From Polytrichum commune (taxonomy: Eukaryota; Streptophyta; Polytrichopsida; Polytrichales; Polytrichaceae), in contig OX485808.1 of the NCBI GenBank assembly GCA_950295325.1, positions 2,854,501-2,918,500 of the forward strand: a DNA stretch of 64,000 bases. Direction: 5' to 3'. The first letter of the stretch is position 1, and every line of letters begins with the position of its first letter. The position numbers and the translations under genes are program-made. Below are positions 14,063-58,660 of this stretch, in pieces. The notes below the pieces were generated by a model. The model worked only from the letters and a program-made list of their open reading frames with translations. It had not been told where the DNA came from and made no database searches.

Positions 14063-14104
14063 CTTGCGGCTTCCTGCTCGGTTGAGGCCTTCTTTGGGCA
14101 ACTA

Positions 14105-36767: not shown

Positions 36768-37137
36768 CACTAAATATGATATTTAGTGTCATATGGAATT
36801 TAATGTCACTATGGTAACTTTTTGGATAACACTTCCTATGAATAAGTGAACAAATATTGTCATAGACGATGGATGAGTTCATCCATTGGTCAAAACCCTA
36901 CCTTCTCTTGTCAACAACTTGAGATGAAATATTGTCATGGATGATTGAAATTTAAATGAAAAATCATTTGGTAAGTGACAGTTAATGCCACAATGTAAAC
37001 GTACAATCCCCCAATAAATTTACAAGGAATGACAAATAATGTGGGATTAACATTCAGTGTTGGTGGCACGGTACCTTGGTTTACAATTAGCATTGAGCAA
37101 GACAATTACAATTTATGACACTAAATATCATATTTAG
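36768..37137 (+). mobile_element. MITE family A copy, best preserved (370 bp)
   Basis: Flanked by TA on both sides. Left end CACTAAATATGATATTTAGT then GTCATATGG; right end ATGACACTAAATATCATATT then TAG. Interior matches the copies at 14105-14494 and 724-1095. Each end is itself a palindrome, so the element can fold both within each end and end to end. Non-coding. Confidence 0.9.
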
Positions 37138-37293
37138 TAGAGCTCGGAGTCTTCATGAAATTGAGTTTGCACTTATGTGAAGTTATCGTATCAAAGGAGT
37201 ATATATGAGCTTCAAATATTACTTGGCAAATGGCTATGGGTTTGATCTAGGTTTTCGAATTATTTCACACTATTTACATGTTTCATAAACTAG

Positions 37294-37465
37294 AAGGAAT
37301 GACAAATAATGTTGGGTCAACATTTAGTGCTAATGACACTATACCTCGGTTTACAATTAGCATTGAGCAAGACAATTAGAAATGATGACACTAAATAATC
37401 ATATTTAGTGTCCTAAGCAAGATTACCACTAGGGGTTGCAAGTAGTTCACTAGATTGTCACTAAT
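37294..37465 (+). repeat. Right-half MITE-A fragment with shared flank
   Basis: 37294-37410 matches the last 120 bp of MITE family A. The following 50 bp ('agattaccactaggggttgc' and onward to 'ttcactagattgtcact') recurs beside the half copy at 39104-39290, so the two segments share a larger repeat unit of which the half MITE is only a part. Confidence 0.75.
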
Positions 37466-40255: not shown

Positions 40256-40495
40256 GACTCATGTTTCCATTCAAAATGTATAACACTACACAACTATGTT
40301 AGTACGTTGTTTACGGAAAATATTATGGGCCACACTTTAAGTGAGGAAACCCACACAAAAAACATTGGGAGTATCACTATGGTTGCATGTCATATTCAAA
40401 CCCCCATGTTATATAACATAGATTGTCTCCGCTAGATTATTTCTATTCCATGGTGTAGAAGAGTGTGCATCTAAGAGACTTCCAACAACGTGAAT

Positions 40496-40523
40496 AACAC
40501 TATATTCGTTAAATTGAGACTTT
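40496..40523 (+). repeat. Left terminal inverted repeat of the large element
   Basis: AACACTATATTCGTTAAATT followed by GAGACTTT; pairs with 57108-57135 with one mismatch. Confidence 0.85.
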
Positions 40524-40599
40524 TTGGGCATTTTGAGACATTCACAGAAATAAGAACAAGGATAAATGGAACACATATTGGAGAAAGTTGTAAGATGCT

Positions 40600-40940
40600 A
40601 ACACTTTGAAGCGGGTGTTTAGAACAAGAACCCCATTAATAACTCATATTTGGGATTGTTTAGGGTGGGCAATCCAAACCTTAGGCCAAGTTGAATGGGA
40701 AATCTTAAAACATTCATATTATCGCACAAAAACTTGTATGAATATGGTTAAGGTAGGGTGGGCAATCCAAACCATAGATCATATTGAAGGGGAAATATGT
40801 GAACCAATATAATATAACATGCAAAATATTCCAAACTCATATTTGTGATGGTTTAGGTAGGGCAATCCAAACCTTAGACCATATGGAAGGGGAAATCATG
40901 TGACACTTATATTATTGCAAAGAAAACATACAAAGTGTGG
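40600..40940. repeat. Left subterminal repeats of the large element
   Basis: Three imperfect copies of a unit of roughly 110-120 bp, each containing 'aggg(tggg)caatccaaacc', then 'ttaga/ggcc.tat', then 'gg(g)gaaat'. The core resembles one degenerate arm pair of the TTTGGGTCG/CGACCCAAA palindrome; the equivalent position in the derivative element (50320-50335) reads AGGACGACCCAAAC. Possibly binding sites for an element-encoded protein. Confidence 0.65.
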
Positions 40941-41037
40941 CATGTAAAATGCATAGCATGCTAACACCACACATCCATTGGATAGTGCGACCCAAAATGT
41001 TCTTGCCTATGGCCCACAACCCTACGCCTACTATGGC

Positions 41038-41832
41038 CTATCTAGCCTCGGAGACTACCTCTTTTTCTTTTGCTTCATTTTCTTTTGTTTTTTTTTCTTT
41101 TGCCTCTTTTTCTTTTGCTGCGGCTTCTTTTGCTCGCATTGCTTCAACATTCCTGAAAATCTCCGCCCCGCGACTATAGCCATTCTTGGGGTGACTGCCA
41201 ACAATAACACATTTTGGATTCCGTCGGCCGCCCGAATTATACGACGAAGAATTCGAATACGATGAAGTGGACTGTCTTGCATTTCTGGTCATGGAGTAGA
41301 AACGCTCCAACTCGATGGATGCACTAGACCGCATAGGTTTACGGGTGAGAGCAACCTGCAATGCGTCAATGCAAGACCACATGTGTTAGTTTAGGGAGGA
41401 AGACCCAAACGTGTCACACGTTCATTTTTTAAGTGCGGGATGATTGTAATGCGCGGTTAACCATGTTTGGGGGTTCACCTTGTCACCGGGGGCGTTCCCG
41501 TCGGAGTCGGCGAGGAGGGGCAATGCGTCCCGCAAAGGAATAGGAAGGGTTCCACTCTTCGTTGGCCGAGCGTCCATCCGCAGCCGCCGTTGAGGTGTAA
41601 TACTGCCGCCGGGCCGAGAGGGGGACGTCCGGACGCATTTGCGATTTATGCCCTTGAGCGGTGACGGGGACGGAGATCGCCGGAAGATTTGCTTGGGTGG
41701 GGGGCTATCGACGACACTGGCGTCAATAGGCTCCTTGGAGTAGTCTATGGTGGACGCGGCATCGTAGACGGTCTCGTAGAAGAAGCTCCCCAAGTTTGAT
41801 TCGCTGACGATCTCAATCGACGGCTCCAAACG
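41038..41832 (-). pseudogene. Downstream exons of the leftward element gene (low-complexity, unassigned)
   Basis: A minus-strand exon starts after a T-rich acceptor (TTTTGCCATCAG) at 41832. It encodes a Ser/Pro/Arg-rich segment (for example IFRRSPSPSPLKG) to about 41460. A second exon, after acceptor CATTGCAG near 41360, encodes RKPMRSSASIELERF and ends at 41038 in a Lys/Glu-rich helical stretch (KEAAAKEKEAKEKK). No known domain. The link to the FCP1-like exon is uncertain, since that exon reaches a TGA at 41942 with no obvious donor before it; this may be a separate gene or a decayed junction. Confidence 0.5.
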
Positions 41833-41941
41833 CTGATGGCAAAATTAAAACAAACAAAACCCAATGGGAGGGGGAGCATGTGAAAATCGATATACATTTG
41901 AGGCATAATATATCACACACAATGGCACACCATGTAGTATC

Positions 41942-42754
41942 TCAAATGAGTTTATTATATTTCGCGTGAGCGTACAACTCTCTGTACATATAGTCCTTCG
42001 GATCCATGTATCTTTCGCCTATCGGATTACAACTAAGGAACCGGGGCACGGGTAGTCCGCTCCCCACGAGTGTTTGAATGTACTTAAGTAGGTCTAACAA
42101 AAAGCGGTCTCGGACCTTCTCGACCGTCCACGTCGGGCAAACTATGAAGTTCGAGGTCGGGTTCAAAATGTTCTTGGAAGCGCTGTCGTCCACCATCAAC
42201 GTGTTGTCACGGGTGGGGCGAACGTCGTAGGGACAGCCGACCATGGTCGGACGTTGGTCCCATACGACTGGCTTCAAGACCTTAAGAAATTGGTTTACGG
42301 CGGGGTTGTTGGGCTTCTTCACAACCCTGCCCTCGGGGGTGTATAACGTTCTACAAGAATCCTGTCCTAGGACCAAGCACGGGGGTTGGAGTCCCTTGAA
42401 GATGAACTCCACGACGGCCTGGGTGGTCTCGGACTTCATGGAGCTCCACACGATCACCCACCATTTGGATAGGGCGACCTGTAGGAAGCGCCGAAGCCAC
42501 GGGCGGAGGTACACTAGCTTGTTTTTGATGTACGCGGGGGGATCATCATAGTTGGCGTCCTCGGGCTTGCAGAAAGGCACCGTGGGGACCCTCGGACAAT
42601 GCACGCACTGGACAAGGACCCCGTTGAGGTCTAGCACCAGGAACCGGGTCTTGGGAGGCAAAGGTGGTGAGGGCAAAATCGGGGGGACCACCGCGCTGTC
42701 CTCCACACTCCTCGGAGAGGATCGGTGGGGAGCCGCGACGCTATGCTCCGAACC
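41942..42754 (-). pseudogene. Leftward element gene, exon 4: FCP1/HAD phosphatase-like domain
   Basis: After acceptor CGCAG the frame runs from 42754 to a TGA at 41942. It encodes RFLVLDLNGVLVQCV near 42650-42600, LRPWLRRFL, WWVIVWSSMKSETTQ, and MVDDSASKN near 42190, followed by WTVEKVRDRFLLDLLKYIQ. This is the layout of FCP1/SCP-like (NLI-interacting-factor) HAD phosphatases, which remove phosphate from proteins such as the RNA polymerase II tail. The usual DxDxT active-site motif reads DLNGV, so the second Asp is Asn and activity is doubtful. The domain itself has no stop, but it belongs to a gene with nonsense codons in exons 1-3. Exon 3 joins to it in phase. Confidence 0.8.
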
Positions 42755-43206
42755 CTGCGGCGACGAGCGAGAGAAGGCGGACGAGGACTATGTTATGCTA
42801 TGTCCATCTCAAGCAGAACGGAAATTTTGTGCAAACACAAGAACAATTGGACCATTGGTGGCAACAAAAACATACAAGGCGAACAACATACATTGGGACA
42901 CGGATGCAAACATATGGGCGTCAAAAATAATAATTTTATTTTTACAAATCTCTATGTACAATTTGATGGGGGGGGGGGGGGAACCGCGGTGAACGAGGGC
43001 ATTCACACTATCCTAATTGTACATCTACAAAATTGGTTGCGCGCCGCCAAGGTCGAGCGTAGTCAAATGCAGGTGAGACGAAGGGGATCGCGGGGGGCAC
43101 GTTGGGGGAGGGGGAGCAAGTGTAGAGCATGGGGGGGGGGCAGGGGGTGTGCATTTCCTCCTAGCAAGGGGAACACGACCACGCCAACAAGACAATGACC
43201 CAGGAA

Positions 43207-43228
43207 GTTTGGGTCGGTCGACCCAAAC
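43207..43228. repeat. Palindrome copy in intron 3 of the leftward gene
   Basis: One full copy of the near-palindrome (arms TTTGGGTCG and CGACCCAAA, centre GT, flanked by G and C) inside the intron 43250-42755, whose donor is GAG|GTAATA and acceptor CCGCAG|GG. The same intron has long G-runs at 42967-42980 and 43130-43141. Confidence 0.9.
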
Positions 43229-43250
43229 TGGGGAGGGCTCAGTGTATTAC

Positions 43251-44741
43251 CTCGCCCTGGTCATGTCTCGACGATGTGGAAGCCTCCACCGTCCCCGCTG
43301 CCCCGCCTCTCTCGCCACCGCCTTCTCCGACGACGTCAGGAACCTTCTCCTGCAAACGATCGGCATCAGGCCCTTGTCCTAAACCAATCCCCGCATGTGC
43401 ATCATGCATGCGTTCATCGATTTGGTTAGGAGTAGAGGTATCACCAGGCCCTTGCAGGCCTTCAACATCTAGCATGGCCGTGTCTAGTTGACACCCATGT
43501 TGGTCAAGGGAGGACTGCGCTGCAACGGGGTTTGGGTCACCCGACCCAAACTGTCCTGCATCTGGAGAGGGCCCTTCGGACACTACAGTGGATGGTGGGT
43601 TTGGGTCGGTCGACCCAAACATCCTGGGGTCGTCCGATTGGTGAGGGGGCGCCATGACTATCGGGGGCCGAAGTGGTGGAGGGCCCAAAGGGGAGGAGGC
43701 TCCAGAGACGCGCCAGATGTTGGGGTCATCCACTTGTTGGACCGGCGCGTACGGAACTTGGTGGGGCCGCATCAAGTGCTGGGAGCTGAAAGACGATTGC
43801 GGCACAGGCTGCTAAGGGATGCTCTACGGAGGGAAGCCGGGGGGCAAGTGCGGGAAGGAGCTGGAGGGAGCCACCACCAAACCTTGCGCCCACATTCCTT
43901 GTATCACTTGTGATATCAATTCGGCGTGGGACGGAGGTTGGGCCATCGCCCTCTGTCGCTCTTGCTCCAACAGGAGAGCCCTCAGCTCTGCTACCTCGTT
44001 CCGCATTGAGGGCTCTTCAGCGGCAGCCTTCTGCAGACGGACGCGTTGCTCCTCGTCCCTCCTCATCTTCTCGTTCGCCTCCTCCACAGTCAGGACCTCG
44101 GGCTTCACCCTAACCATGCCAGCGAACGCTGTCGGGGACGGGGGATCTGATCTGAGCCGTTTGGCGAGCTCAATATCATCATCGTCCTCGCTGCTTATGG
44201 CAATGGTCTCCTCCACGGAGTAGTCGCCATACAGCTTCTTCCCCTTCAACTTCCTCCTCTCCCTGAACGTGGCGGTCGCGTCCCTGGAGTACATGTCCCA
44301 TGCATCGTCCACAGTCAGGACGGGCACGAGCTTACTCTGCGGGGTTGCCGCCCGCATCGCCTTCTTCCGTTGAGGGGCTTCGGATTGTTGCGTGAAGCCC
44401 GTTGCCCCTTCCTCGACGTCGCCTTCCTTCTCCGCCTCCTCGTGTTCCTCTTCTTCCTCCTCCTCCTCCTCCTCAACCTCGCCACCTTCTGTGCGGGACA
44501 GATTGCCCGGATGCAACCCGACCAGAGGTTCGGGAACTTGGGTTGTGGCCCTCATGGCCATTTCCTCCGGGTTGATGCGCCTCACCCTATCAAGAGGGTT
44601 TTCGCCACCTTGAACAACCTCGTCGACGTAGCTACCCGGGATCCAATCGAGGATGTCCATCTTCTTCGCCAGCGATTTCTGCACCTTATAAAATGGCAGA
44701 TCGCCATCCTCTATGTAGGAGTATATATTCAGCCCCGACAT
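43251..44741 (-). pseudogene. Leftward element gene, exon 3: acidic and Pro-rich region
   Basis: The exon follows acceptor TTGTGTAG at 44742 and ends at donor GAG|GTAATA (43251). It starts MSGLNIYSYIEDGDLPF, has a run of about twelve Glu near 44450-44475, a basic patch (RERRKLKGKKLYG), a heptad-like helical segment (RRDEEQRVRLQKAAAEE), and a Pro/Gly-rich tail. No known domain. Two TAG codons at 43824-43826 and 43812-43814 interrupt an otherwise continuous frame. In the tail, two copies of the element palindrome are translated as FGSGDPNP and FGSTDPNP. Phase agrees with exons 2 and 4. Confidence 0.72.
43530..43620. repeat. Two palindrome copies inside exon 3
   Basis: Copies at 43530-43551 (imperfect, centre region ACC) and 43599-43620 (arms intact, centre GT) lie within the coding frame and encode FGS(G/T)DPNP. 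They show that the motif can be carried in coding sequence as well as in introns. Confidence 0.85.
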
Positions 44742-44815
44742 CTACACAATCCAAGTTATAGGGAAATTAGAATTTGTCGAGGCAGTCACATAAACAAGAC
44801 TAAGTGAAATGTGTA

Positions 44816-44981
44816 GTTTGGGCCGGTCGACCCAAACTTGCAAAGAGCCTAGTTTGGGTCGGTCGACCCAAACCTGCAAAGAGCCTAGTTTGGGCCGGTC
44901 GACCCAAACCTGCAAAGAGCCTAGTTTGGGTCGGTCGACCCAAACCTGCAAAGAGCCTAGTTTGGGTCGATCGACCCAAAC
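44816..44981. repeat. Palindrome array in intron 2 of the leftward gene (5 copies)
   Basis: Five copies at a 36-bp period, separated by CTGCAAAGAGCCTA-type spacers. Four have centre GT (two of them with GGCCGG for GGTCGG), and the last has centre AT, which is a perfect palindrome. The intron is 45009-44742: donor ATG|GTAAGT, acceptor TTGTGTAG. Confidence 0.93.
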
Positions 44982-45009
44982 TGCTTACGAGCTATAGAAA
45001 GTCACTTAC

Positions 45010-46341
45010 CATAGCAGCATAGACAGGTTTTGAGCCTCCGAAGACGTTGAAGATGCAGTCCCCTCTCCTCGTCAGTGTCCTCATCATTCTCATGTAAAAT
45101 TCCATCCGCAGTTCATCTGCAAGATAGCTCGCTTATTTAGCCTCGTCGTAGAGGCTCTTGTTGGCACCCAACCCTTCTGGAACTTAGAAGAGTTTGTCCA
45201 TCCGGGATATAGGGTGGTTCGGAACCTTCAGCAACTCCGCTTTGTACACGAAGTACAAACACAAGACGTTGACGAACTTGGTCTTCTTGTCCTTCAACGT
45301 CGTGTAAGCCCCCTCCGCCGGTGCGGCGATGTAGTGAGACTTGGACACTGCATACTCCGGCTGCAGTTTCCGGACAAGCTCGTACACCTGCTCCGCCCTC
45401 CTATCCTCGACTATCCAAAGCCAGATATCTACCTCCCTGAACTTAGGGCTTGCATAATCGACGAACTTAGTTAAGAAGGGGTCGTAGAAGAGGGTGCTCA
45501 TCGTGCCCTCAAATGAGTTTCCAGGAATATTTCTAAAATCAATCATCCCAAAAGGAAAACGGTCCCTTGCTTTCGTCCTTATCGCCATTCTGGCGTCTTG
45601 ACCTGGCCAGCCCTGAATTTTCAAAGGCTCGAAGGTGACAAGGTTGAAGTAAGCGTCCCCTTCAAACTGGACAATCTTTTTTTCCTTGATGAAGTTCGAG
45701 AACGCACGCGCTGTGTGATCCGGAAGCGCCCGGTTCTTCCCACCCTTCACCATCTTGGCCCGCAAGAAGTCGTCCCCCGCTTCCCTTATTAGAGCCGCCA
45801 TGGAGGCACTGGTGAACTTATATTTATCTTTGAATGCTCTCCAGTTAGCCTCATGAACCTCGCCGTCCACGACAATATTCCTCTCTGGCACCAATTTATG
45901 CAGCTCCTGCACGATAGTCGTCTTCTTTTTCCTATTCTCCGTCCATTCCTTCATGGTGTAGCATGAAGGAACGAAGGATTTGGGCTTTACGAAGACAATA
46001 TTCGGGTGCACCCAGCACGTCTTGGCCGTGGGTGCCACGTGCAGGATGTGCGATGCCGCCTTCTCCACCTCCGTCTCTGACAGCCCTTGAAGAGTTCTAA
46101 AGAACTCTCTCACGAGAGGCTTCATCTGCTTGAAGCGCGAGGCCAGGCTGAAGAAAGCACCAGTGTCGGGGTCGATCAAATCCCCTGTCTCGTGCTTTTC
46201 AAACACGGTTTTCCACTTCCTCCAAACTGAGTCCGATGCTGTAATCAAATAAATCTCCCCCTTGAGGTCGCTGTATTTCTTCTGCTTGTGGCTCGAATTA
46301 TCAATGGAGGAGAATTTGTTGATCATTTGGTATTTGAAATC
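45010..46341 (-). pseudogene. Leftward element gene, exon 2: unassigned conserved-looking region
   Basis: The exon begins after acceptor CGTGCAG (DFKYQMINKFSSIDNSSHK) and ends at donor ATG|GTAAGT. It encodes about 440 residues of globular composition, with strings such as SDSVWRKWKTVFEKHETGD, SRFKQMKPLVREFFRTLQG and VDIWLWIVEDRRAEQVYELV. I do not recognise a domain. Two TAA codons, at 45184-45186 and 45133-45135, interrupt the last 60 codons; the frame between and after them keeps a protein-like composition (LADELRMEFYMRMMRTL), so they look like point mutations rather than a natural end. Confidence 0.7.
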
Positions 46342-46431
46342 CTGCACGTGAACAAAACATAACATTTGAATGCGTGTTAGATAAGTACATGTGATTTCCA
46401 AACCATATCATGACCAACATCTACAACAAGA

Positions 46432-46597
46432 GTTTGGGTCGATCGACCCAAACTAAAAAAAAACACAAGACTGCAACAGTTGTTTGGGTCGATCGACCCA
46501 AACTAAAAAAAACACAAGACTACAACAGTTGTTTGGGTCGATCGACCCAAACTAAATAACAAGGCTGCACCAGGAGTTTGGGTCGGTCGACCCAAAC
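46432..46597. repeat. Palindrome array in intron 1 of the leftward gene (4 copies)
   Basis: Four copies at a 46-49-bp period. The first three have centre AT and are perfect 22-bp palindromes; the fourth has centre GT. Spacers contain 'aaaaaacacaagactgcaaca'-like sequence. The intron is 46606-46342: donor GAG|GTGAGT, acceptor CACGTGCAG. Confidence 0.93.
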
Positions 46598-46606
46598 AAT
46601 ACTCAC

Positions 46607-47931
46607 CTCCCACTTGGGATTCTTGTCCTTCGCATTCTCCCTCTCCTTGGGAGGCCTACCATAGAACTCCCACACCTCCCGCGAGGCCATGATATTCCTT
46701 ATCTAGGAAGCTTGGTAGGCCCTCTTCTTGTTTCCCATATTGAAGTACCGGGAGATGTCGCTGAGCTTGGTCTCGTCGTCAGACCACACCACCAGTGCCT
46801 TCCAAACCTTCAGCTTTTCCTTCTGATTGTTGGGATTGTCCCACTCATTCATGAGTTGGATTTTCTTGGATGCCTCCACGCTGTGTTGGCCGTCTATCAG
46901 CCAAAAATCACCCTTCTGAATTGTTGGCCACATTTCAGGTGTAGGCATTTTCTTAAGACCCTATGGCATCACTACAATCGTTTGCCTGTCGTCTTTAAAC
47001 TGCTCGCAAACGATCTGCGCGATTATCCAGTCAACGTAGGCGTCCTCCTTTGCCCGGACACACTTCTCCGGTGGCGCTAGATGGCACTGGCTAATGTTCA
47101 CGTCGAACTTGAAATCCCTGCCCATGAAAAAACAGTGGGAGCATTTCGTCGTGAAATTGTTCACGATTTTCTGCAGCTCCCCTGCATCCACCTCTTCGCC
47201 GGGCTTCGGTATGTGCAACTCCGGTGAGACTGGCTCGTCAGTTATCACAGATGACTCTCTCGCCCTCTTGGATGGAGTTGTTTGACGGCTCCCAGAAGGT
47301 GTAGGTGTCTCACTATTCGTAGGTGTTTGGGAGGGAGTGGTCCTACGCGAGTCAGCCGGTACTGGTAGCGGCATCCTCACCGATTGAGGTCTTGACGACC
47401 CTGCTCCTTCCTCTGTGGGAGCTTTCCGCCTCACAGGTTGCTGTGATTTGGTTTTGCTTTGCAGGCCCCTGTTCAGCACGGTTATTGCATGTTTTAGTTT
47501 TGTGAACCGGCTTGAGACCTTGGTATTCGATGTACTCCCATCGATAAATATTGTCTCCGGCTTGATAACTTCCGGTTCGACACAAGACTCTCTTGCATAG
47601 AGTGCGTCGAAAGGCTCGGAGAACTGGTGCATGAACATATGCGCGTTCTGCACAGCCGAGTTCTCGAGGATGACGTCGGTGTAGTCTCCAAGAGACTGTA
47701 CCGATGCGACCTCCCATCCCGTAATAGTCGCCCAGGTGTGTTTCTCCACGGTTCTCACCTTCACAACAAAAATCATTTTGTATGTTGAGGCTTTGACTAC
47801 TTGAATAGACCAAGCGAGACAAGCCCGTCCTTAGGGGAATAGGAGTCATCCTGCAGGGTTTCGTGCTCCTGCCACAACATGTCCGGCGCAGGCATGAACC
47901 ACCTTTCGCCGGGTCTTTTCTTTGGAGCCAT
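46607..47931 (-). pseudogene. Leftward element gene, exon 1: ParB-like DGQH domain
   Basis: ATG at 47931-47929 directly follows a strong acceptor (TTTTCTTACAG), so a 5' untranslated intron is likely. The protein starts MAPKKRPGERWFMPAPDMLW, shifts frame near 47805-47820, and continues VVKASTYKMIFVVKVRTVEK. A Ser/Thr/Pro-rich linker follows, then VDWIIAQIVCEQF, GDFWLIDGQHSVEASKKIQ (about 46920-46865) and LSDISRYFNMGNKKRAYQAS. The order of a PIxV-like strand, DGQH and a residue-poor helix matches the ParB/sulfiredoxin-type fold, used in DNA or nucleotide binding. TAG codons at 46961-46963 and 46703-46705 interrupt it. Role in the element is unknown; a DNA-binding job at the palindromes is a guess. 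Confidence 0.75.
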
Positions 47932-47957
47932 CTGTAAGAAAATAATGTGCAAAGTTA

Positions 47958-47979
47958 GTTTCGGTCGTTCGACCCAAAC
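47958..47979. repeat. Single palindrome copy just upstream of the leftward start codon
   Basis: One-mismatch copy (TTTCGGTCG ... CGACCCAAA, centre TT) 27 bp upstream of the ATG at 47931, in the predicted 5' untranslated intron. Confidence 0.85.
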
Positions 47980-48217
47980 ATCTACGACATGAATAGGTTT
48001 AGGTGGATTGTGTATTTATATATTTCAGCATCATTTGTAATGATAATAAGAATGTTATGATTATTGGGTGGATTTGCATTTTATATTGTTTGTGACATGT
48101 AGGATTCCTTGATACTTTTCCTTGATACATTCCTTGATTATTATTTTGGGTTGATGTGAATTTTATATTGATGCAAAAATCATGGATTTCTTTATGAGTT
48201 TATAATTAGAAGACTTT

Positions 48218-48475
48218 GTTTGGGTCGTTCGACCAAACATGATGCTTTGTGTTATATTTGGGTCGTTCGGCCCAAACATGATGCTTTGTTTTGTGTTTGG
48301 GTCGAGCGACCCAAACAAGGGGCTGTGTTTGGGTCGGTCGACCCAAACAAGAGGCTGTGTTTGGGGCGGTCGACCCAAACAATAGGCTGTGTTTGGGTCG
48401 GTCGACCCAAACAAGAGGCTGTGTTTGGATCGGTCGACCCAAACAATAGGCTGTGTTTGGGTCGTCTCCCCAAAC
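48218..48475. repeat. Palindrome array upstream of the leftward gene (8 copies)
   Basis: Eight copies. The last five follow a 31-bp period with spacers 'aagaggctgt' or 'aataggctgt'. Centres include TT, AG and GT; several arms carry single changes. The array lies about 0.3-0.5 kb 5' of the ATG at 47931, probably inside a 5' intron or promoter. Confidence 0.92.
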
Positions 48476-48699
48476 TGTATTATTTTAATATATTTTTTAA
48501 ACTTGGCATGTAGCATATACAATGCTTATGCATTGTGTATGCTACAACACCGTGAATCTACAAACACATATTGGTTAAAATAAAACACAATACCTTTCAA
48601 AGATGTTGTGCAGACAATTTGGAGTAGAGCAGGTTGTTCTTCCAATAATTCTCAATATCAAACAAACTGTGAGAAAGTTCAATGAGAAACTTTCAAATA

Positions 48700-49020
48700 A
48701 GTATCAACTCTCTCAAATAGCTCTTGGATCTCTCAACCAACTCCTGAATCTCACACAGAACTACTGAATCTCTCAAAAGACTTCGAAATGTCTAAACCAA
48801 CTCCTGAATCTCACACACAACTACTAAACCTCTCAAAAGCCTTCGAAATGTCCAAACCAACTCCTAAATCTCACACACAACTACTAAACCTCTCAAAAGA
48901 CTTCGAAATGTCTAAACCCACTCCTGAATCCCTCACAAAACTACTGAATCTCTCAAACGACTTCGAAAACTCTCAAACAACTCTTGATACTCTTAAAGAA
49001 CTCTTGAATTTCACAAGCAC
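48700..49020. repeat. 60-bp tandem repeat, 4-5 units
   Basis: Units contain 'ccaactcctgaatctcacac' then 'aactactaaacctctcaaaa' then 'gacttcgaaatgtct'. The period of 60 keeps a plus-strand frame open (SKPTPESHTQLLNLSKDFEM-type repeat), but composition and position, in the 5' region of the leftward gene, favour a minisatellite. Confidence 0.8.
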
Positions 49021-49319
49021 TCCTAAAACTTCCAGTACAAACACCTGGACCTCCCAAACAGAAGCTTTATCTACTACACAATGTTCTACTAACTTCCTTC
49101 AGCACTTTCCAATACTCTTCAACACTCTTTTGCTAACTTCCTTCACGCTCACGCTCTAAAACCTTCCTCCGTATGTTTCTGTTTCTTTCAAAACTCTTCC
49201 TAACTTCTAAGATTGCACAAGGGCTATTCTATTGAAGAGCAAAAGAAAGGAGGGAAAAGAAGATGCAGAAGAAAGCAATGAACGCGGGAGAATGAAGGGT
49301 TAACCTACACCAAGCCTGA

Positions 49320-49405
49320 TTCACCGCGGCGCTTTGCGAAAGCGGCGCTTCAGGAGAGGCGGCGCTTCGAAGCGAGGCGCGGAGAGAGAGAGAGAGAAAG
49401 AAATG
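49320..49405. other. GC-rich GCGGCGCTT cluster next to a GA tract
   Basis: Three or four GCGGCGCTTYG-type motifs in both orientations, followed by (GA)n. On the minus strand this is a pyrimidine tract followed by CpG-rich DNA upstream of the leftward gene, so it may be part of that promoter. This is inference from position only. Confidence 0.35.
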
Positions 49406-49757
49406 AGAAATGCGACGGTTGGGGTTTTGTTTACCTCGGGCATTGGCCCCCAACCGCATGAATAGGGTGCCCACAGGATTAGGGCACCCACGGAAACAGG
49501 GTTACAGGGAACCCTAAAACCTAAATCCTAACGCTTGACTCTAAACCCTTAGCGGGCCTACCTCTTTAAGAGTACATAGGCTATTTGCCTCATAGCATAG
49601 GTTGCATTCTACAATATCAACTTTTTGTAAGTTGAAAACCTTTTGAGTTTGTAAGTTCCTCGCCAATTGCCTTCAAAACTAATTTTTAGTAGGTTAAAAT
49701 CCTTCATATCTTTTAATGTTGTAGGTTTTAAAATCAAAATTTGAGTACTAAGTGGGA

Positions 49758-49812
49758 TCCTTGGCAGGAATTGAACCTGGCTAAGCCTTTCACCACGTTT
49801 GAAGGCCAAGGA
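49758..49812 (-). repeat. Possible tRNA-derived (SINE-like) fragment
   Basis: On the minus strand TCCTTGG at the start pairs with CCAAGGA at the end, and a B-box-like GGTTCAATTCC precedes the 3' arm. At 55 nt it is too short for a tRNA, so it may be a SINE head or coincidence. Confidence 0.3.
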
Positions 49813-50152
49813 TTAACCAAGTCTTTTTTAAAGAGTTGATTATAAGTTATGAAAGGTTGCTAAAATTCAAATGAGTTTAAGGGTGAAAGTTCTCACCATG
49901 TTCTCATTCAAGTTCTACTCTTCCTGCAAGATATAGCCTAAAGATATGTACTTAGGCCAACTAATTTCCCAATTTGAAGAAGGATGAATGGCTAAAATCC
50001 TCTCTTTTAAAAAAAATTTAGGCAAAATTTCCTAAATGTTTTTTATCACATAGGTTGATATCCTATGTTTTTAAATTGTCCATAGGCTCTTTGTCCTACA
50101 CTTTCAAAATTTTATAGGCTAAGTCACTAATTTTGTAGGCTGCATTTGTTTT

Positions 50153-50411
50153 AATCGGTATATTCGTTAATTTGGGATTTTTTCGGCATTTTGAGAAAGT
50201 TACAAATATAAGAACATGGATAAAATCGCACGTACATTGGAGAATGTTGTAAGATGCAAATACTTTGAAGCGGGTGTTCATATCAAGAACGCAATTAAGA
50301 TCTCATATGAAGATGGTTTAGGTAGGACGACCCAAACATTACACTATGTTGTTGTGGTCCATATATTAATTTGAGAGAAGAGAAAATCTCAAATTAGCAA
50401 ATTTTAGGGTT
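50153..50411 (+). mobile_element. 259-bp deletion derivative of the large element
   Basis: 50153-50345 matches the first 190 bp of the large element (from TATATTCGTTAA through 'ttgtaagatgc', 'actttgaagcgggtgtt' to 'tttaggtaggacgacccaaac'). 50355-50411 matches its last 55 bp ('ccatatattaatttgaga' to the terminus). The two ends are inverted repeats of each other. It lies between the two genes in the same orientation as the host element. No clear target duplication was seen. Confidence 0.8.
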
Positions 50412-51989
50412 TAGGTTCTTTTGGACCCTGCTCTAAACCTTTATTAGTTTTTTCAAAAGAACTATGGAGTACCCTAAGGTGCTACATAAAATGTGTTATT
50501 CTACAAAACTAACCATTTATATAGCCAGCGCATTCTTACAACAAAACTTTATGCTAAACTAATACTTATCCCCTACTTACATGACACCATACCCTAAATT
50601 TTCGAAAATCATTGAAGGCATTGGTTTCTCTTTTGTTTGAGCATGTTAGAAAAACCATATAATTGCGTTATATTTAACGATGTAACCATTCACATTTAGT
50701 CTTTACCAATGATGCCAACAATTCACACGATATTGAATGAAAAAAAAAGATTACCCACACCCCCCAACATGTGGAACAATTTAGAATAATTGAGTGTGGA
50801 GCCTAATAAATGAATACCTTTCCCAACTGCATTTTGCAGGGTTTAGGAGATAGGAGATAGGGTTATAACATATTAATCTATCCAATGTCAATGTATAACA
50901 TTGTCTTACTCGTGAGAAGAGTCTTATAGGAAGGTTATAGTGAAGACGATGTTGATTATGTTAATTTGTTATTTGAGACGTTTAAACACGATATATTGAT
51001 TGGTCGTGTGTTTATTCAAATAACATGAAATATTGTGGATGTTAATAGGGGCTAGGGGTCCAACTTTGGATGTTTCGCTCACTTTAGGGAATCACATATT
51101 AGTCGCTAATAAACCATCGTTCATGATGTATTTAATATATGAAATGTGATGTAAAAGTAAATCGGAGAAGCACAACATCATGTTGTTATTCATTGTTCTC
51201 TCCACGTGTATTAGATAATGGAGGAAGATATAACAGATATTGTTTGCATAATATGAAGAAGAGTCTAATCGGAAGGTCATAGTAAATACAATCTTGATCA
51301 TGTTAATATGTTATATGGGACGTTTAAACATGATATCCTAATTGGTTTTGTATTTAGTCAATGCGTATTTCATGTTGTGGATGTTATAAGGGTTTAGGGT
51401 CCAATCTTGGATGTTTTGCTCTCACACATTAGTAAACTTGAAGTGAACTTGAGGATGGATTCAAGTAACATTAAAAGATTGAACTAGAAAGGGACATTGG
51501 TAGTTAGTATCCCCTTAACAATGTCCACATACGTTCGTCATTGCCACTCTTGCATGCGAGATAATAGAGCAAGGTTCTAGGGTTTAGGGTTTAGGGGGGA
51601 CAAATAAATAATTCTATTCATCATGACAATGGCCTCAAGCCTTGGAAACTCTCTCATAATTGCAGCCTCCAAATGGCCCAAACCCCACCTAAATAGGTTT
51701 ACACTTGAAAGCATTGAATGGAGTTGTGTTTGGGTCTACATATTGGTTAAAATATACCTTGATGATACTTGAAAAAATTAATGTGGCCGCCACCCTTCCT
51801 CCCAATGGCGTATGTCATATCCACACAAAACAAAACAAATAGATTAAATAACATAGACTAAGTCATATGACGGCTGGGGTATCAGAGGGGCATTGATAGA
51901 TGCGCATTTTTCTACTATAAACAGAAAACGGGGAATTATGTCAGGAGGTTTGAAATAACCTCTGCAAGAGAAGAAGGCGGGGAAGGCAT
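50412..51989. other. Intergenic region of the large element with a 200-bp direct duplication
   Basis: No gene seen. About 50914-51110 and 51248-51440 are diverged direct copies; both contain 'gaagagtct', 'gacgtttaaaca', 'gttgtggatgtta' and a 'tttggatgtt' motif. Two interstitial TTTAGGG units lie at about 51577-51592. Confidence 0.6.
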
Positions 51990-52075
51990 CCAATGACTAA
52001 GTCTGGGAAGCGGAGGTGGATAATATAAAGGGGCGCACCCCCCAAAAGTCGGTCCTTCTTTTCTCTTCTCCCGCT
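51990..52075 (+). promoter_or_regulatory. Candidate core promoter of the rightward gene
   Basis: CCAAT at 51990-51994, a TATA-like TAATATAAAGG at 52021-52031, then a pyrimidine-rich patch (CCTTCTTTTCTCTTCTCCCG) at 52053-52072, about 30 bp downstream, where transcription could start. The coding start is 1.46 kb further on, so a long 5' untranslated intron containing the palindrome array is likely. Confidence 0.55.
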
Positions 52076-52334
52076 GTCGAATTCGTAGAGAGAACTCTTA
52101 GTAAGAGCTGTACTTCAAGGTTCGTGCATGCTGCCGTTCATGAGCACTTATCCATAGCATGCAAGTTCATGAGCACCTATCCACAGCATGCAAGCCCACC
52201 GTGAACTTTGCAATGAGCTCAAATTCAACACACCACGCAATATCCGCCGCATTATACGCCGGATTTTGTGGTGTACTTGGGCGAACCTTCACCTCTACAC
52301 TAGTGTTGGCGGGTTTTGAGTCTGACCCTATGAG

Positions 52335-53338
52335 GTTTGGGTCAACCGACCCAAACCTGTCCACTAGTGTGTTAGGGTTTATGTCTGACCCTTAACAGGT
52401 TTGGGTCAGTCGACCCAAACCCCAACCCCAGTGTGTTAGGGTTTTTGTCTGACCCTTATCAGGTTTGGGTCGACCGACCCAAACCTGTCCACTAGTGTGT
52501 TAGGGTTTATGTCTGACCCTTGTGAGGTTTGGGTCGGTCGACCCAAACCCCTACCCCAGTGTCTTAGGGTTTTTTTCCTGACCCTTATCAGGTTTGGGTC
52601 GACCGACCCAAACCACTACATGGTGTGGGTGGATGTACTCTTGTGAGGTTTGGGTCGGTCGACCCAAACCCCTACCCCCAGTGTGTTAGGGTTTTTTCCT
52701 GACCCTTATCAGGTTTGGGTCGACCGACCCAAACCACTACCTGGTGTGGGTGGATGCACCCTTGTGAGGTTTGGGTCGGTCGACCCAAACCCCTACCCCA
52801 GTGTGTTAGGGTTTTTTCTTGACCCTTATCAGGTTTGGGTCGACCGACCCAAACCCCTACCTGGTGTGGGTGGATGTACCCTTGTGAGGTTTGGGTCGGT
52901 CGACCCAAACCCCTACCCCAGTGTGTTAGGGTTTTTTTTTCTGACCCTTATCAGGTTTGGGTCGACCGACCCAAACCCCTACGTGGTGTGGTTGGATGTA
53001 CCCTTGTGAGGTTTGGGTCGGTCGACCCAAACCCCTACCCCAGTGTGTTAGGGTTTTTTTTCTGACCCTTATCAGGTTTGGGTCGACCGACCCAAACCAC
53101 TACCTGGTGTGGGTGGATGTACCCTTGTGAGGTTTGGGTCGGTCGACCCAAACCCCTACCCCAGTGTGTTAGGGTTTTTTCCTGACCCTTATCAGGTTTG
53201 GGTCGACCGACCCAAACCCCTACCTGGTGTGGGTGGATGTACCCTTGTGAGGTTTGGGTCGGTGGACTCAAACCCCTACCCCTGTGTGTTAGGGGTTCAG
53301 TCCGACCCTTATGAGGTTTGGGTCGGTCGACCCAAACC
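52335..53338. repeat. Palindrome array upstream of the rightward gene (about 17 copies)
   Basis: About 17 copies at alternating spacings of roughly 56-64 bp. From about 52460, copies with centre AC and copies with centre GT alternate, i.e. the asymmetric core is laid head to head. Two copies plus spacers form a 120-bp higher-order unit containing 'agtgtgttagggtttttt', 'ctgacccttatca' and 'ggtgtgggtggatgtac'. One copy near 53254 is damaged (GGTGGACTC). The array ends about 200 bp before the start codon. Confidence 0.95.
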
Positions 53339-53536
53339 CGCACCAAAATAATTTCTGGAACTTGTTTTGGACTTGCACACAGTGTTGGGAGTTCACATTG
53401 TAGTCGTGTTGGAAATGTCTTCATCCTCGGTGTCCCCATTGATCATGGTATCTTGCATTTTCCGATATTTGATTCTTTTGGACCCTTACATTCTTTCCAT
53501 GTGTGTTGAGGTTTCATGTGCATGTGTGTAGGCGCA

Positions 53537-56500
53537 ATGGAGGGAGTTGGTGGAAGAGGGGATTCCTTCTCTGACAACATGGGCAACACCCAATCTACGT
53601 CTGGGGATGAGCTAGACATTGTCAGGGAGGATAGTTTTGATGACAGTGCAGATGAAGGTGACTTGGGGAGTCCTTCGCCATCTGCCCCTTCTTGCCCCAC
53701 TGTGGAATGTGCTGGACTTTCACGAGCTTCATGGGTGAATTTGGATGTAGTACTTGTTAATGACAGTGGAGTTGCTGTGGCGGAGGGTATTTGTCGTAAC
53801 ACACATCCACAAGATTGCATTGATGAAAACCCCCTTGGCACCGAGGACGTTGGAGTTGTTATATTGGAATCACTCGTACATTCCGAAGTGAATCCAACTC
53901 ATAGGTTTTCGTTGCGAAGGTGGCCGTTGAGGAATGTGACAATTGAGGGGGTTAGCTTGCATGACCATGAGCGACGACACATCCAAATCCAACAGGAGCT
54001 CCAAGCAAACATTTGGCCACGCAAAGGCCTACGGAAGTACGATACATTGGCACATCCTACTCCGTCTGCAAATGAGTGTAAACGTCAAAGGTTGCTTTGT
54101 GAGGAGTCCATTAGAGAAGTTGCCACAAAGGATTGTTGTGTACATCGTTGTTGCCAATTGTTCCCAAGGGATAAATTGAAGGCCATCCGCGAGGAAATGT
54201 GGCTTGGAGATTTCCGTCTAAGATCCACCAAAAAGCTTGATGTCCATAGGGCGATACATGTGAACGGAGCGGGTCGCAAGGTCATCACCCTTGAGAGCAT
54301 AGACGTGTGTTGTACGGCATGGTACATCATTCACGGTGTGTCAAAAGCGGAATTTTATAGACAAGCCACGTATGCCAAGGAAGGCCGCCGGTCCCGTCAC
54401 CATGGGAATACGGGCTTAAAGAAACCAAGGGAAGCAACGAGACAAGCAACCGTCACTCTGGCAACCATCATTGTCCCCCTTGCCGATGCAATGCCGCACA
54501 AAACACGCACACTCGCAACCGGTGAAAAGGTTGTGGAGAAGGTTCTTCCTACAAGCACGAAATGGAAAGACATATTGTTGGACGTAAACGCAGTTGGCGA
54601 GAAGACTGGGTTGGACCCTATTTCGTTGTCGAAACTGAGTGCAATAAAAAAATCTCACTTTAGCGAATACATCACAAAAAGACGAGGCGACAAATTTGCC
54701 CGTTGTTCTAAATGCGAGAAGTTGAAACGCCTTCGAGATGCACACACGATGGGGACAGAGTCATATGCCGCACATCAAATGAACTATTTCAAGCATGTGA
54801 ACATGCAAGAGGCACACCGTAATGATTACTACACAAATAGAGCTTTGTCCATCTCTAGGCCTTTGGAGGTCCTTTCAATCATCCATGACAAAATGGACCA
54901 TGCCAAAACAACCTCACCATGTTTTGCAAATCGAATAAAAGCCACGGACGGCCTTTTTAAGCTTCCTGTATCGGTTACAGGTGATTTCGATAACAATTGC
55001 ATTGCATTACCTAAACACAAATTTGTGCTTTAGGTTTGTACTTGGGGCCATAGATGTACACCATGTGAATTTTTTGGTGTTATAGTTGAATATTAAACCA
55101 TTGGGTTGGCTTTGCAGGGATGATTGCACATGGACATGGTGATGTCAAGTATGCTCATTATGCTCTTGATTTGTATCCGGCGGATTCAAACCACACGATA
55201 GGGTCATTTGCAAAGCTTTTACGTGATTTGGAGAAACCGCCGTCCTATTCATCAAGATTGTTATTTGAAAACTCGGGATCAACACCTCTATATGAAGCGG
55301 TCTTGGATGGAAGAGATGTATGCGTGCACTCCTTGCCGGAGCCACCAAGTGAAGATGTGATTGCCAATAATTTGCCCCCAACTCTGCGTGTCCAATTGGA
55401 TAATTGTACGAAGGACAATAAAAGTAGATATGTTTTTGCATATTGGTCGTTGTTGGTTGCGAAAGGCATTTTCAAGGAGATTTTTGTGTCCTTTCTATTG
55501 GTAGGCCACACGCACGACGATATCGATGCATCTTTTGGGCGGTGGAGCATGAAGTTGCACGAGGAGGATTTTCCAACAATCCCATTGTTGATGAAGTCGT
55601 ACATGGATTTGGAGAACATTCCCGTCATCCCCCATATGATCGAGGAGGTTCCAGACTTCAATGCATTCATAGAACCGTATATTCGAAGCGGAGCTCACCG
55701 ATTGATCGGACATACGAAGGCACAACAATTTCGGTTCTACGTGCGTGACGATGGTATCCCCGCCATGCAATACAAGTTGTTGTGCATGTCACAAGACTGG
55801 AGCCCGCCGGAGGGTCTCCTTGTATGGCGTGTTGATGGGGAGGGAAGGACGATGTTGCCTGACGGAGAGCCTAAGCCTTGCAAACCAATACCCATGAAGA
55901 ATTTGGAGGACATTTGTAAAGGCATATCAGGCTTCATACAATATTGGGAGAGTTTGAGGGTAGCGGATGTTGGTGGATCGTGTTGGCTTTGTTACGGAAG
56001 TTGGATACAATATTAGACACGTGTTCGTGGCGCTTTGGCAAACCTTCATCAAGATACACCCCTTACTTTAAAGCATGGGTTTTGGCCACAAACACGTGTC
56101 AATGTACAAGCTTCGGAGGCTAGTCTTTTGGGAAATGGAGAGGTTCGAGAGGAGTTTGATGTGGACGACCATTACGTGGGGCCTGCTAGTAGTCGTCCGC
56201 CACCATTTTTCCGCATTGCAGTGGATTGTCATGAAGGTTATATGCTCATTTTGCGTCCTGGAGATGAGACATATGCAAAGCCAGTGTGGGTGGCAAGAGC
56301 TTTGTCCAATCCAAATTTTGTAACTTCCAGCCCTCATTTTCGACAAATACAAGTAGAGTACTACCGACCGACAGCACGGAATGAAGATGTTGTTCGGCAT
56401 TATACAGGCTGGGAACAAACCAACACTTTCGGTGGAAGGTGGATTCTGAGCACGGTCCATCTTGGGTAGATACAGATTCCATATTCATAGCATGGAAACC

Positions 56501-56603
56501 ACGGAAAAATCATAGTGGATCAGTGTCCATCCCTCAAAAGCACATAACTTTTGCAAAAGACAACCTTGCTCGGATCGCAGAAGAAGCAACCCACGTTGAA
56601 TGA
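53537..56603 (+). pseudogene. Rightward element gene: DUF7869-like putative transposase, two exons
   Basis: Exon 1 is 53537-54980 (start MEGVGGRGDSF; an upstream in-frame ATG at 53516 is less likely because GTGTGTAG looks like an acceptor). Exon 2 starts at 55118. The intron 54981-55117 (ACAG|GTGATT ... TTTGCAG|GG) joins the halves as LPVSVTG-MIAHGHGD. Key motifs are IIHDKMDHAKT (54881-54910), LDNCTKDNKSRYVFAYW (55396) and LLVGHTHDDIDASFG (55496-55540). This spacing matches the DUF7869 family, whose Asp-rich motifs fit an RNase-H-like nuclease; calling it the transposase is inference. CxxC residues (CSKCEKL, near 54710) and a Cys-rich patch (CCVHRCC) may bind zinc. A TAG at 56014-56016 and a frameshift near 56440-56454 disable it; after the shift the frame continues to a TGA at 56601-56603. 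Confidence 0.82.
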
Positions 56604-57107
56604 GAAGTTGGTAGGATTGTGTTAGCATGATTATAGTGTAATATGTAATTCGACAAATATATATTACTTATATGTGTGCTCCTCAAACTTGGGGCAAAGT
56701 TTGGGTAGAGCTTGCGAATGCTATATTGTTTGGGGTTGGATGAATATCCATTTACTATATTTCAATACAGTTGTGAAGTTCATTTTTTTTATTAAGTTTG
56801 GGACTACATTTTCCATTGAAGAAAAATGCATTTATTGCATGCACTTTGTATGTTGCAATGTCTATATTTTATTGACCATGCTAATAATAGAAATCATTTT
56901 ATATGTTTCTTGGGTGAAACTAGTTTGGAGTGCTCTATCCAAAGTGTTTTTGTTGATGAAGTTGGTGTTGAGTGCTCTACCATATGTGCTTATGTCCACA
57001 CATAATAGATTTGGGATATTAGAACATATAATATATTTGAGATTGTTCGCAATATAGTTTCGGAACACGGAATGTTGTTTGATCCATATATTAATTTGAG
57101 ACTAGAG
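56604..57107. other. Right subterminal region of the large element
   Basis: AT-rich and non-coding. The last 50 bp contain 'ttaatttgagac' and 'gtcttaattta', which can fold as a hairpin and recur at the right end of the 259-bp derivative. Confidence 0.55.
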
Positions 57108-57135
57108 AAAGTCTTAATTTAACGAATATAGTGTT
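57108..57135 (-). repeat. Right terminal inverted repeat of the large element
   Basis: Opposite strand reads AACACTATATTCGTTAAATT then AAGACTTT; pairs with 40496-40523. GAAT follows directly. Confidence 0.85.
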
Positions 57136-58660
57136 GAATACCAATTCAATTCATACCCGAGCCTATGAAGGGAATTGGCGTCTACATTTGTCATTAGGGG
57201 ATGTTTTATAATGTTTAATGATGATTCTCTCGAGAAGGGAGTGAACTACACATATTCGTGCTACGGTGCATTGTGAGAATTAGGAACAGGAATCATGTGT
57301 CACTCCTGTGAAAGGAGGTCAAATTCTCCATGAGTGTGTGCTAGGAGGCCGAACTCCTGTGGCAGAGCAAGGTTATCTTACATTTCGTCACGACTGGTTC
57401 AAAGGCATAAGAGTGTGCACTATGATGGACATGTCTTGTGTGTATTCCTGTGAAAGGAGTTTAGATCCTTTATGAATGTTGATGTATTCGGATCCGAGTT
57501 TTGCATGATCTCAGGGAGAAAAATCATCTTCTTTGTGTATCCCATTCCTGGAAAGAGTTTGGGGAAATTCTATTGAAACTTAAAGTGATGTTCACTGCGA
57601 GCAAGTATGTCCTGTAGTTCTTACTTCACCTGATTGAGAGAAAGTGATGTTGAGTTTCTGTCCGACTCTGAAGCATCATGGATGGAGTAACTTTGAGCCA
57701 CGGAATTGGTGAGCCTGTGTTAATGAGTGTGAAGTTGAAGAAAGTCGAAGCAATCTGTCTCGTAAGGCACCCGAACGAAAATGCCGCGCAGAGTCGAGAG
57801 GCAGAAGGAGTCGCGTGATCGGAAGAAGCCGTGAGCAAGAAATAAGTTGCCCATTAACCCATATTGTTTGGGTGAGGCTGGAAGGGCAAGCATATAAAGA
57901 GAAGGAGCCAGCTCTATGTTCGAGAACTTGACGCTGACTTGGTTACTGGTTACTGGTTACTAAGACTGTGGCCCTCTTTGTGAGATTGGTTACTTGTGAC
58001 TGTTACTTGGAATTGGACTATGGTCCTGCGATTAGACGCTCTCGGTCCTGGTCTTGTTCGGTTCGCTTAGACTCGTACACTAGGTTCCCGTCACTTGTAA
58101 CTAGACTTTTGCACATTATAACAATTAATTCTAATGTGTTCAAATTCCATTTGATTTTGATAAGTCTAAAATGACTAAACAATAATTCAACTTTGAGATA
58201 TTGAAGTAAATCAATGAATTCATTTGCTTAGAGGTAGGAGAGTCATGTGTGATTGTGATGTTTCCTAACCTGTGGTATGGCCGATAGTCCTTGGTTACTT
58301 ATCTCAAGAGACTATGGTCACCTCAAGGAGTTCTTGCCTTGGGGTTTCTGAGACTATGGCGTACCCATATGTTTATGGCTGAGCTGTGACTCCCTGAATT
58401 GCAAAACACATTATAAGAGTGATGTTACTGACGAGAATGGGTTATAAGGGAGTGACTGATCAATTGCATGTACTGCTGTGAGTGACCCTTAACCTTAATT
58501 AAATCATTCCCAAAATTCACTTTAGAAGTCCTTTTACCTGTGTTTGTTGTCCTAAATTCACCTTAATTCCCTTGTGATCTATCAATTAACTTAATGGTGA
58601 TCCCTAGATGTAACACCTGACACTCATTTGGTCTTCCCTGTGTGGTTTTCTTAATTGGAA
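57136..58660. other. Non-coding stretch, possibly LTR-like
   Basis: No gene. A TATA-like ATATAAAG at about 57892 followed by repeated GGTTACT units (57943-57965), and 'aaaggagt/aaggaggtc' repeats at 57310-57460, resemble the regulatory part of an LTR. I found no matching second LTR, primer-binding site or retroelement protein, so this is only a suggestion. Confidence 0.25.

Follow-up and report, generated by a model that had tools for sequence, protein, structure and literature searches.

The moss Polytrichum commune carries a family of giant DNA transposons, one copy of which occupies 16.6 kb (positions 40496–57135) of the 64-kb stretch analysed here, referred to as the window (contig C6, 2854501–2918500, of a 408-Mb assembly in 64 contigs). 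The element moves as a unit between terminal inverted repeats (TIRs), in the cut-and-paste manner, and duplicates 4 bp of its target. It holds two divergent genes: a right gene with a DUF7869 domain, probably a DDD-type transposase, and a left gene that may encode a DNA-binding protein. Copies of one 22-bp palindrome are arrayed in it, and elsewhere in the genome two related families each have both genes and a palindrome in a version of their own. The explanation favoured here, at a probability of roughly 0.6, joins these features: a giant transposon with a DDD-type DUF7869 transposase would encode a left protein that binds the element's own palindromes and counteracts its silencing.

Ends, target duplications and copies

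The 28-bp ends of the element (left TIR at 40496–40523 on the forward strand, right TIR at 57108–57135 on the reverse strand) differ by one base and have GAAT outside each (40492–40495 and 57136–57139), just as a preliminary description of this DNA had stated. The 20-bp end AACACTATATTCGTTAAATT is found at 40496–40515 (+) and 57116–57135 (−), the sole two matches in the window at up to three mismatches, and 100 shuffles gave none. Genome-wide there are 733 exact 20-bp ends, 360 forward and 373 reverse, against none for a reversed-pattern control. Positions given below for ends and palindromes are those of the first 100 listed of each kind, and totals are genome-wide counts. Among these first 100 ends, 38 adjacent convergent pairs occur, 21 of them spaced 14–19 kb.

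Ten of the 21 were picked by hand and read whole together with the window copy. All 11 near-full-length copies measure 16.4–17.4 kb and have identical 4-bp flanks, the flank word being different in each (GAAT, ATAA, GTAA, TATA, ATCT, CTAT, TAGT, AATG, ATGA, TGAT and TTTG). A separate sample of ten end pairs showed identical 4-bp flanks in nine, the exception being a pair spaced 36.9 kb. With the five copies shared by both samples counted once, 15 of 16 distinct copies have the duplication. A deletion copy of 3.6 kb (C1:11508363–11511968) is flanked by a clean 4-bp duplication. In all 11 near-full-length copies, which were chosen by length, the two genes occur together between the ends.

A paralogous empty site lies on the same contig. 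The 300 bp of the left flank match C6:2707448–2707747 at 99%, the match ending at window position 40495, the last base before the element, and the first 30 bp of the right flank (57136–57165) match C6:2707744–2707773 exactly. Because the two matches overlap by 4 bp, this site holds the target GAAT once (2707744–2707747). The preliminary description had proposed a transposon with inverted ends and a divergent gene pair, and had named as checks a genome search with the element end, empty sites, and the co-occurrence of both genes between the ends; the genome copies, their 4-bp duplications and the joint presence of the genes all support that proposal. The copy in the window is decayed, as is evident from two in-frame stops in the first exon of its left gene and frame breaks elsewhere.

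At C6:2707744–2711902 the right flank of the empty site runs for 30 bp and is then split by some 3.86 kb, the pieces overlapping by 3 bp; this is probably another insertion with a 3-bp duplication. The sequence to the left of the element has five further complete or partial copies within C6:2.70–2.96 Mb and one on C1, at 93–99% identity.

The right gene

The right gene has two exons on the forward strand. Exon 1 (53510–55013, donor position approximate) is open in the window copy and has the first conserved aspartate region (DxMD) near its end. Exon 2 (about 55118 to 56016) encodes the DUF7869 domain with the motifs QxDNC and GHTH[DE]D[IV]D; the window copy has an in-frame stop here, and its frame continues to about 56469. 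In the ten other full copies exon 1 is 485–553 amino acids long in nine and 403 in one, and exon 2 is open over 502–504 amino acids in seven. The Pfam match to DUF7869 (PF25273, E 3.5e-41, at 55090–56016 on the forward strand) agrees with the earlier assignment of this gene. The acidic residues of DxMD, QxDNC and H[DE]D[IV]D are kept in a five-row alignment that includes two other genomic DUF7869 classes, and it is because of these conserved aspartates that the gene is read as a DDD transposase. Its motifs, their conservation and the association with the element make this identification probable. Exon 1 has a ratio of nonsynonymous to synonymous substitution rates (dN/dS) of 0.19–0.40. No paper in the library searched mentions DUF7869, and a scan of viral contigs with the DUF7869 alignment gave 66 pattern matches and no relative.

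In the genome search for DUF7869, 150 of 1491 candidates were scored. Further DUF7869 genes (loci L049–L056) are about 31–40% identical to that of the window family, and a gene of the DGQH type described in the next section stands beside one of them: in the L049 class, the adjoining divergent gene has the motif PVDGQH (27% over 93 amino acids, E 0.003).

The left gene

The left gene reads in the opposite direction, and its six exons, all on the reverse strand, may belong to one protein or to several. Exon a (46607–47933, start approximate) contains a DGQH motif reminiscent of the ParB box; the window copy has two in-frame TAG stops and a frame break near the start, while intact copies read WLIDGQHSVEA, which resembles the ParB box. 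Exon b (45184–46344) has a frame of 407 amino acids in the window, versus 471 in many other copies; used as a query, the 407 amino acids gave 102 scored places out of 1155 candidates, at 91–100% identity, many of them free of stops. Exon c (43239–44741) is acidic and of low complexity, with a frame break in the window copy near 43812–43823. Exon d (41942–42787) encodes an FCP1/NIF-like phosphatase domain (PF03031, E 1.1e-13), with a dN/dS of 0.17–0.21, exon e (41422–41844) has no domain found by Pfam, and exon f (41038–41385) encodes a tail rich in Ala, Lys and Glu.

Between subfamilies of the 16.6-kb family, dN/dS ranges from 0.03 to 0.40 in 33 of 36 exon comparisons, and all computable values are below 1; in the other three, all of exon a, dS is saturated. 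Poorly aligned codons were dropped for these estimates and different copies were used for each exon, and the lowest values rest on near-saturated dS. The ratios indicate that the left gene is under purifying selection.

Searches with the DGQH domain of the left gene against Pfam, PHROG, NCBIfam and the PDB gave nothing significant. The best PDB match was Cas1 (E 1.5 and 0.97), taken as a chance match, and tblastn against 50,697 phage records gave a single match at E 7. For the window family, Pfam detected no methyltransferase domain in any exon of the left gene, and it gave no ParA-like domain among the exons scanned.

Palindromes of the 16.6-kb family

The window copy contains 26 sites of the palindrome GTTTGGGTCG-NN-CGACCCAAAC, and the 47 kb of the window outside the element contain none, in agreement with the preliminary description of one palindrome recurring throughout the element. 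Each of the 11 copies has 22–31 of them (counted by the exact core GGGTCGNNCGACCC), and in an unbiased scan of these copies for perfect 9+2+9 palindromes, 282 of the 284 found were this one. The genome holds 9731 sites, against none for the control. Of the first 100 listed, 63 are inside two TIR-bounded elements, which make up 35 kb of the 1.72 Mb concerned, and 18 are beside a single exact end.

The palindromes cluster at corresponding places in the 11 copies, between left-gene exons and in the upstream DNA of both genes, within repeat units that vary in length. In the window copy, two sites are found at 43211–43616 (one between exons c and d, the other within the frame of exon c), three exact sites between exons b and c (44856–44977), four between exons a and b (46436–46593), three exact sites in 32-bp units upstream of the left gene (48299–48408), and 14 in units of 64 and about 121 bp upstream of the transposase gene (52467–53333). 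Over the 11 copies, 272 of 292 sites are outside the frame of exon c, and none is in the frames of the right gene. The 2-base centre is free and differs by subfamily, with AG/CT prevailing in one subfamily, GT/AC/AT in two more and a mixture in a fourth.

As perfect inverted repeats, many of them in introns and promoter-side DNA, these sites could be thought to act as hairpins of RNA or DNA, in splicing, in termination or as a source of small RNAs. This is distinctly improbable. A loop of two bases suits a hairpin badly, and within a family the letters of the arms are nearly invariant (282 of 284) rather than altered in pairs, with the centre left free, so that it is the sequence that is kept and not just the pairing. 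The conservation of the arms letter for letter is what disfavours a hairpin role.

Related families and gene pairing

A second, 25-kb family has the ends ATGGGGATATTAACTAAAATGAG[A/C]C, present 47 + 44 times in the genome at up to two mismatches (control 0). Ten end pairs were examined; they are spaced 24.1–25.2 kb, with 4-bp flanks that are identical in nine and off by one base in the tenth. The TIRs of the two families agree at 16 of 25 positions without gaps, a score that 33 of 200,000 mononucleotide shuffles attained. One copy was read over about 21.5 kb, all but some 3.5 kb at its left end. Its DUF7869 gene is a single frame of 692 amino acids, 34–52% identical, by part, to that of the window family. 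Its left gene is likewise divergent, with VVNGQHTLAA in exon a, and its exon b is homologous to that of the window family (32–34% identity, E 1e-16 to 3e-12; E 7e-14 for the window copy). The array in this family is made of another palindrome, CCCACGGGTG-NN-CACCCGTGGG, which accounts for 14 of the 15 perfect palindromes in the stretch read and has 819 sites in the genome (control 0). The palindrome of the 16.6-kb family is absent from the approximately 21.5 kb read of the 25-kb family, and that of the 25-kb family from the 11 window-family copies.

A third family served as a test, since it should have a palindrome of its own if protein and palindrome go together. Its left genes are 59–66% identical to those of the 25-kb family; four of them have an open frame of 1187 amino acids, with a DUF7869 gene about 17 kb off in three and 36 kb off in the fourth. 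A sample of 1.5 kb upstream of one left gene (L086) contained seven perfect 10+2+10 sites, CCCACGGGCG-NN-CGCCCGTGGG, which is the palindrome of the 25-kb family altered symmetrically by one base in each arm. This sequence occurs 208 times in the genome (control 0), and of 50 sites listed, 34 are within 5 kb of the four divergent gene pairs. Exon b of the left gene is homologous across all three families, and the comparison indicates that likeness of the palindromes tracks likeness of the left proteins.

The pairing of the two genes is also recurrent. A divergent DUF7869 gene is found 8–40 kb from the left gene at 42 of 53 places of the related families, compared with a mean of 0.13 and a maximum of 2 for shuffled positions, and a non-divergent one within 40 kb at two of the 53. 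The sample, typed by hand, took 53 of 135 left-gene matches (later fragments and those of the 16.6-kb family being set aside) and 52 of the 150 scored DUF7869 matches (the 502-amino-acid class and others being set aside), and its shuffles used estimated lengths for C6 and C7. The 11 left-gene places that have no partner may be misses, because only 150 of the 1491 DUF7869 candidates were scored. Among the matches listed for DUF7869, exon b and the related left genes, all are on seven contigs.

FCP1-like domains are common in ordinary plant genes, and the presence of one in exon d might suggest that the left genes are fragments picked up from the host that do nothing for the element. This is contradicted, for exons a–d of the window family, by a dN/dS below 1 in all 33 computable comparisons of the 36, and the homology of exon b in three families and the recurrent divergent pairing also speak against capture, which is thus very unlikely.

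Probable exchange of modules

In a comparison of subfamilies D and A, dS is 0.045–0.065 for the right gene, whereas the left gene has 1.77 (exon b), 0.90 (exon c) and 0.76 (exon d), with exon a saturated. This difference, a dS near 0.05 on one side and from 0.76 to saturation on the other, points to an exchange of the two halves among lineages.

Inside the window element lies an old, degenerate internal-deletion derivative of a related element, 259 bp in length (50152–50410, +). The preliminary description had relied on an independent 259-bp derivative with the same ends; this is the only candidate found, it is nested in the element, and its two ends depart from the 28-bp terminus by 6 and 9 bases. 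It lends no independent support to the ends, which the genome copies provide instead. Its left and right parts are about 80% and 84% identical to the ends of the window element, and no clean duplication was seen around it. It is present in the subfamily A copies read, and partly in subfamily C copies and in one D copy.

Relationship to known elements

CACTA/EnSpm elements have CACTA ends and a 3-bp duplication. They were considered as the end of the element contains CACTA, and were ruled out by the AACACTA ends, the 4-bp duplication and the ATGGGG start of the related family. Maverick/Polinton elements have a 6-bp duplication, a polymerase B and an integrase; here the duplications are of 4 bp, and no polymerase B or integrase domain was found by Pfam in the exons scanned.

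The preliminary description recognised no superfamily for the element, a verdict that the analysis does not support, Sola being absent from the classes it had compared. As characterised in the literature, Sola elements have a DDD transposase, 4-bp duplications and variable TIRs, some exceed 15 kb, and they are present in the moss Physcomitrella (PMC10741241). The 4-bp target-site duplication of Sola is found in both the 16.6-kb and the 25-kb family. Judged by its length, TIRs and duplications, the element probably falls within the Sola superfamily or close to it. Sola2 of Dictyostelium and Polysphondylium, with AT-rich 4-bp duplications, TIRs of 12–21 bp and chimeric elements that include Fanzor1, is similar in its duplications, short TIRs and accessory genes, as compared by description; the accessory gene of Sola2 is Fanzor1, whereas that of the moss element is the left gene (PMC3627910).

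A close parallel is Sola1-1_Ec32 of Ectocarpus, 21.5 kb long, in which the gene opposite the transposase combines a ParB-like domain with a DNA methyltransferase (PMC12477816). The likeness extends to a giant TIR element with an accessory ParB-like gene on the strand opposite the transposase. According to the authors of that study, the ParB-like/methyltransferase proteins may act on the element that encodes them by binding and modifying it; transposons of green and red algae are reported to have similar proteins (PMC12477816). Unlike Sola1-1_Ec32, the moss elements have family-specific palindrome arrays ('palindrom' has no occurrence in the main text of PMC12477816), and an FCP1-like domain is present in the 16.6-kb family. 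These algal genes raise an alternative, namely that the moss left gene descends from them and that its product recruits a modifying enzyme to mark its own copies, instead of opposing silencing. The position of the Ectocarpus gene and its green and red algal likenesses argue for such a descent (PMC12477816). The scanned exons point the other way, as those of the left gene in the window family lack a Pfam methyltransferase domain, exons b and c of the 25-kb family lying outside that scan, and this alternative is considered unlikely.

VANDAL elements are Mutator-like. In Arabidopsis VANDALs, the targets of the VANC proteins are motifs in fast-turnover tandem repeats, mainly in introns and intergenic DNA and dense in their own family (PMC5735166, PMC10398659). 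The moss palindromes resemble them in being family-specific and arrayed mostly in introns and intergenic DNA, and differ in form: VANC motifs have 8–9 bp and one orientation, the moss sites are 22-bp palindromes (PMC5735166, PMC10398659). A Mutator-like carrier was considered for the moss element and set aside, in view of the 4-bp duplication and of Pfam scans that gave no Mutator-like element (MULE) domain. There is also a likeness to bacterial ParB-parS, in which a protein with an IDG-type box goes together with palindromic sites, and phage P1 parS has repeated ParB sites. Unlike that system, the moss left protein has no significant profile match, and no ParA-like domain was found in the exons scanned.

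Proposed mechanism

In the proposed scheme, the DUF7869 transposase would cut and paste the element at its TIRs. The left protein, perhaps through its possibly ParB-like DGQH region, would bind the 22-bp palindrome of its own family, arrayed mostly in introns and intergenic DNA, and we infer that it would mark its own copies in this way. Such binding would coat the non-coding DNA of the element and keep its genes expressed against host silencing, as VANC does in VANDALs; this anti-silencing role, proposed by analogy, is the least certain step. The FCP1-like phosphatase domain of the 16.6-kb family, perhaps aimed at RNA polymerase II, may assist.

A wider version of this proposal holds that a lineage of giant plant transposons has its own ParB/parS-like marking by protein and palindrome, that the two diversify together and act against silencing, and that this is an independent analogue of VANC in an unrelated superfamily. 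It is put forward tentatively, as the less probable, stronger form. Cognate palindromes with joint diversification were not met in the literature looked at, in searches aimed at other subjects and none at palindromes.

Alternatively, the palindromes could be sites for the transposase or a partner and act in transposition, in synapsis or as an enhancer, rather than in escape from silencing. Transposases of other superfamilies bind repeated internal sites, and palindromes that belong to the elements and differ between families would suit such a role. Their positions suit it less well: in the 11 copies none is closer than 2.69 kb to the left end or 3.79 kb to the right end, and most stand between left-gene exons and between the genes, although in the 25-kb family one is about 1.35 kb from the right end. 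Moreover, much of the interior is dispensable in cis, as the 3.6-kb deletion copy, known from its ends and flanks, is cleanly duplicated. A role in transposition is accordingly judged rather improbable, and anti-silencing is tentatively preferred because the palindromes are mostly in introns and promoter-side DNA and not at the ends, and are family-specific like the targets of VANC.

Several observations weigh against the palindrome-binding, anti-silencing scheme. No Pfam family, ParB_N included, matches the DGQH domain of the left gene, so that of the ParB-like/FCP1-like gene of the preliminary description the FCP1/NIF part stands and the kinship with ParB goes no further than the motif. A genome search with PF02195 (ParB_N) matched no element locus; its four matches over the curated cut-off are on contigs C10, C12 and C23, outside the seven large contigs and the elements. 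With PHROG, a weak ParB match (E 0.044) appeared in three of five left-gene family members, and hhalign against three P1-type ParBs gave 0.1%, the aligned stretch being the ParB box, in a comparison that is weak because the three ParB sequences are closely related to one another. The FCP1-like domain comes from the window family alone; the sequence read for the other two families does not reach the corresponding end. The classical FCP1-type motif is DxDx, and phosphatase activity is doubtful because DLNG replaces it in the window family. The palindromes are not purely non-coding, given that 20 of the 292 sites are within the frame of exon c and one palindrome of the 25-kb family is inside exon c as well. 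They are also not confined to recognised elements: 19 of the first 100 sites listed for the 16.6-kb family are away from any exact end, and 16 of the 50 of the third family are away from the four gene pairs. The parallel between palindrome and protein rests on three families, and palindrome binding could reside in some other region of the left protein or be done by the transposase. As for the ParB_N matches on C10, C12 and C23, these are possibly bacterial or organelle-derived.

Other features of the window

A frame of 1583 amino acids (3155–7906, −) combines protein kinase-like and NB-ARC-like parts with about 20 leucine-rich repeats in 72-bp tandem units, a combination that we take to suggest a moss resistance-type gene. 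A 367-nt inverted pair (731–1097 and 36766–37132), 82% complementary and 36 kb apart, represents another repeat family, with further copies at about 14098–14490 and 37287–37400. A short inverted-repeat element at 22563–22806, with 68-nt arms that are 87% complementary, resembles a miniature inverted-repeat transposable element.

Significance

For the ParB-like gene of Ectocarpus, binding to its own element is a guess, and the passages concerned do not name a target (PMC12477816). In P. commune, three families in one plant genome offer three candidate targets, each of which goes with a protein of its own and is present at hundreds to thousands of sites, and the idea of self-binding is therefore directly testable in vitro and in moss. 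DUF7869, a domain whose function has so far been blank, gains a likely role as a transposase. The gene and palindrome versions that the two related families have of their own suggest a system by which a transposon recognises its own DNA and, if true, this could be another case, independent of the first, in which transposons have evolved sequence-specific self-recognition.

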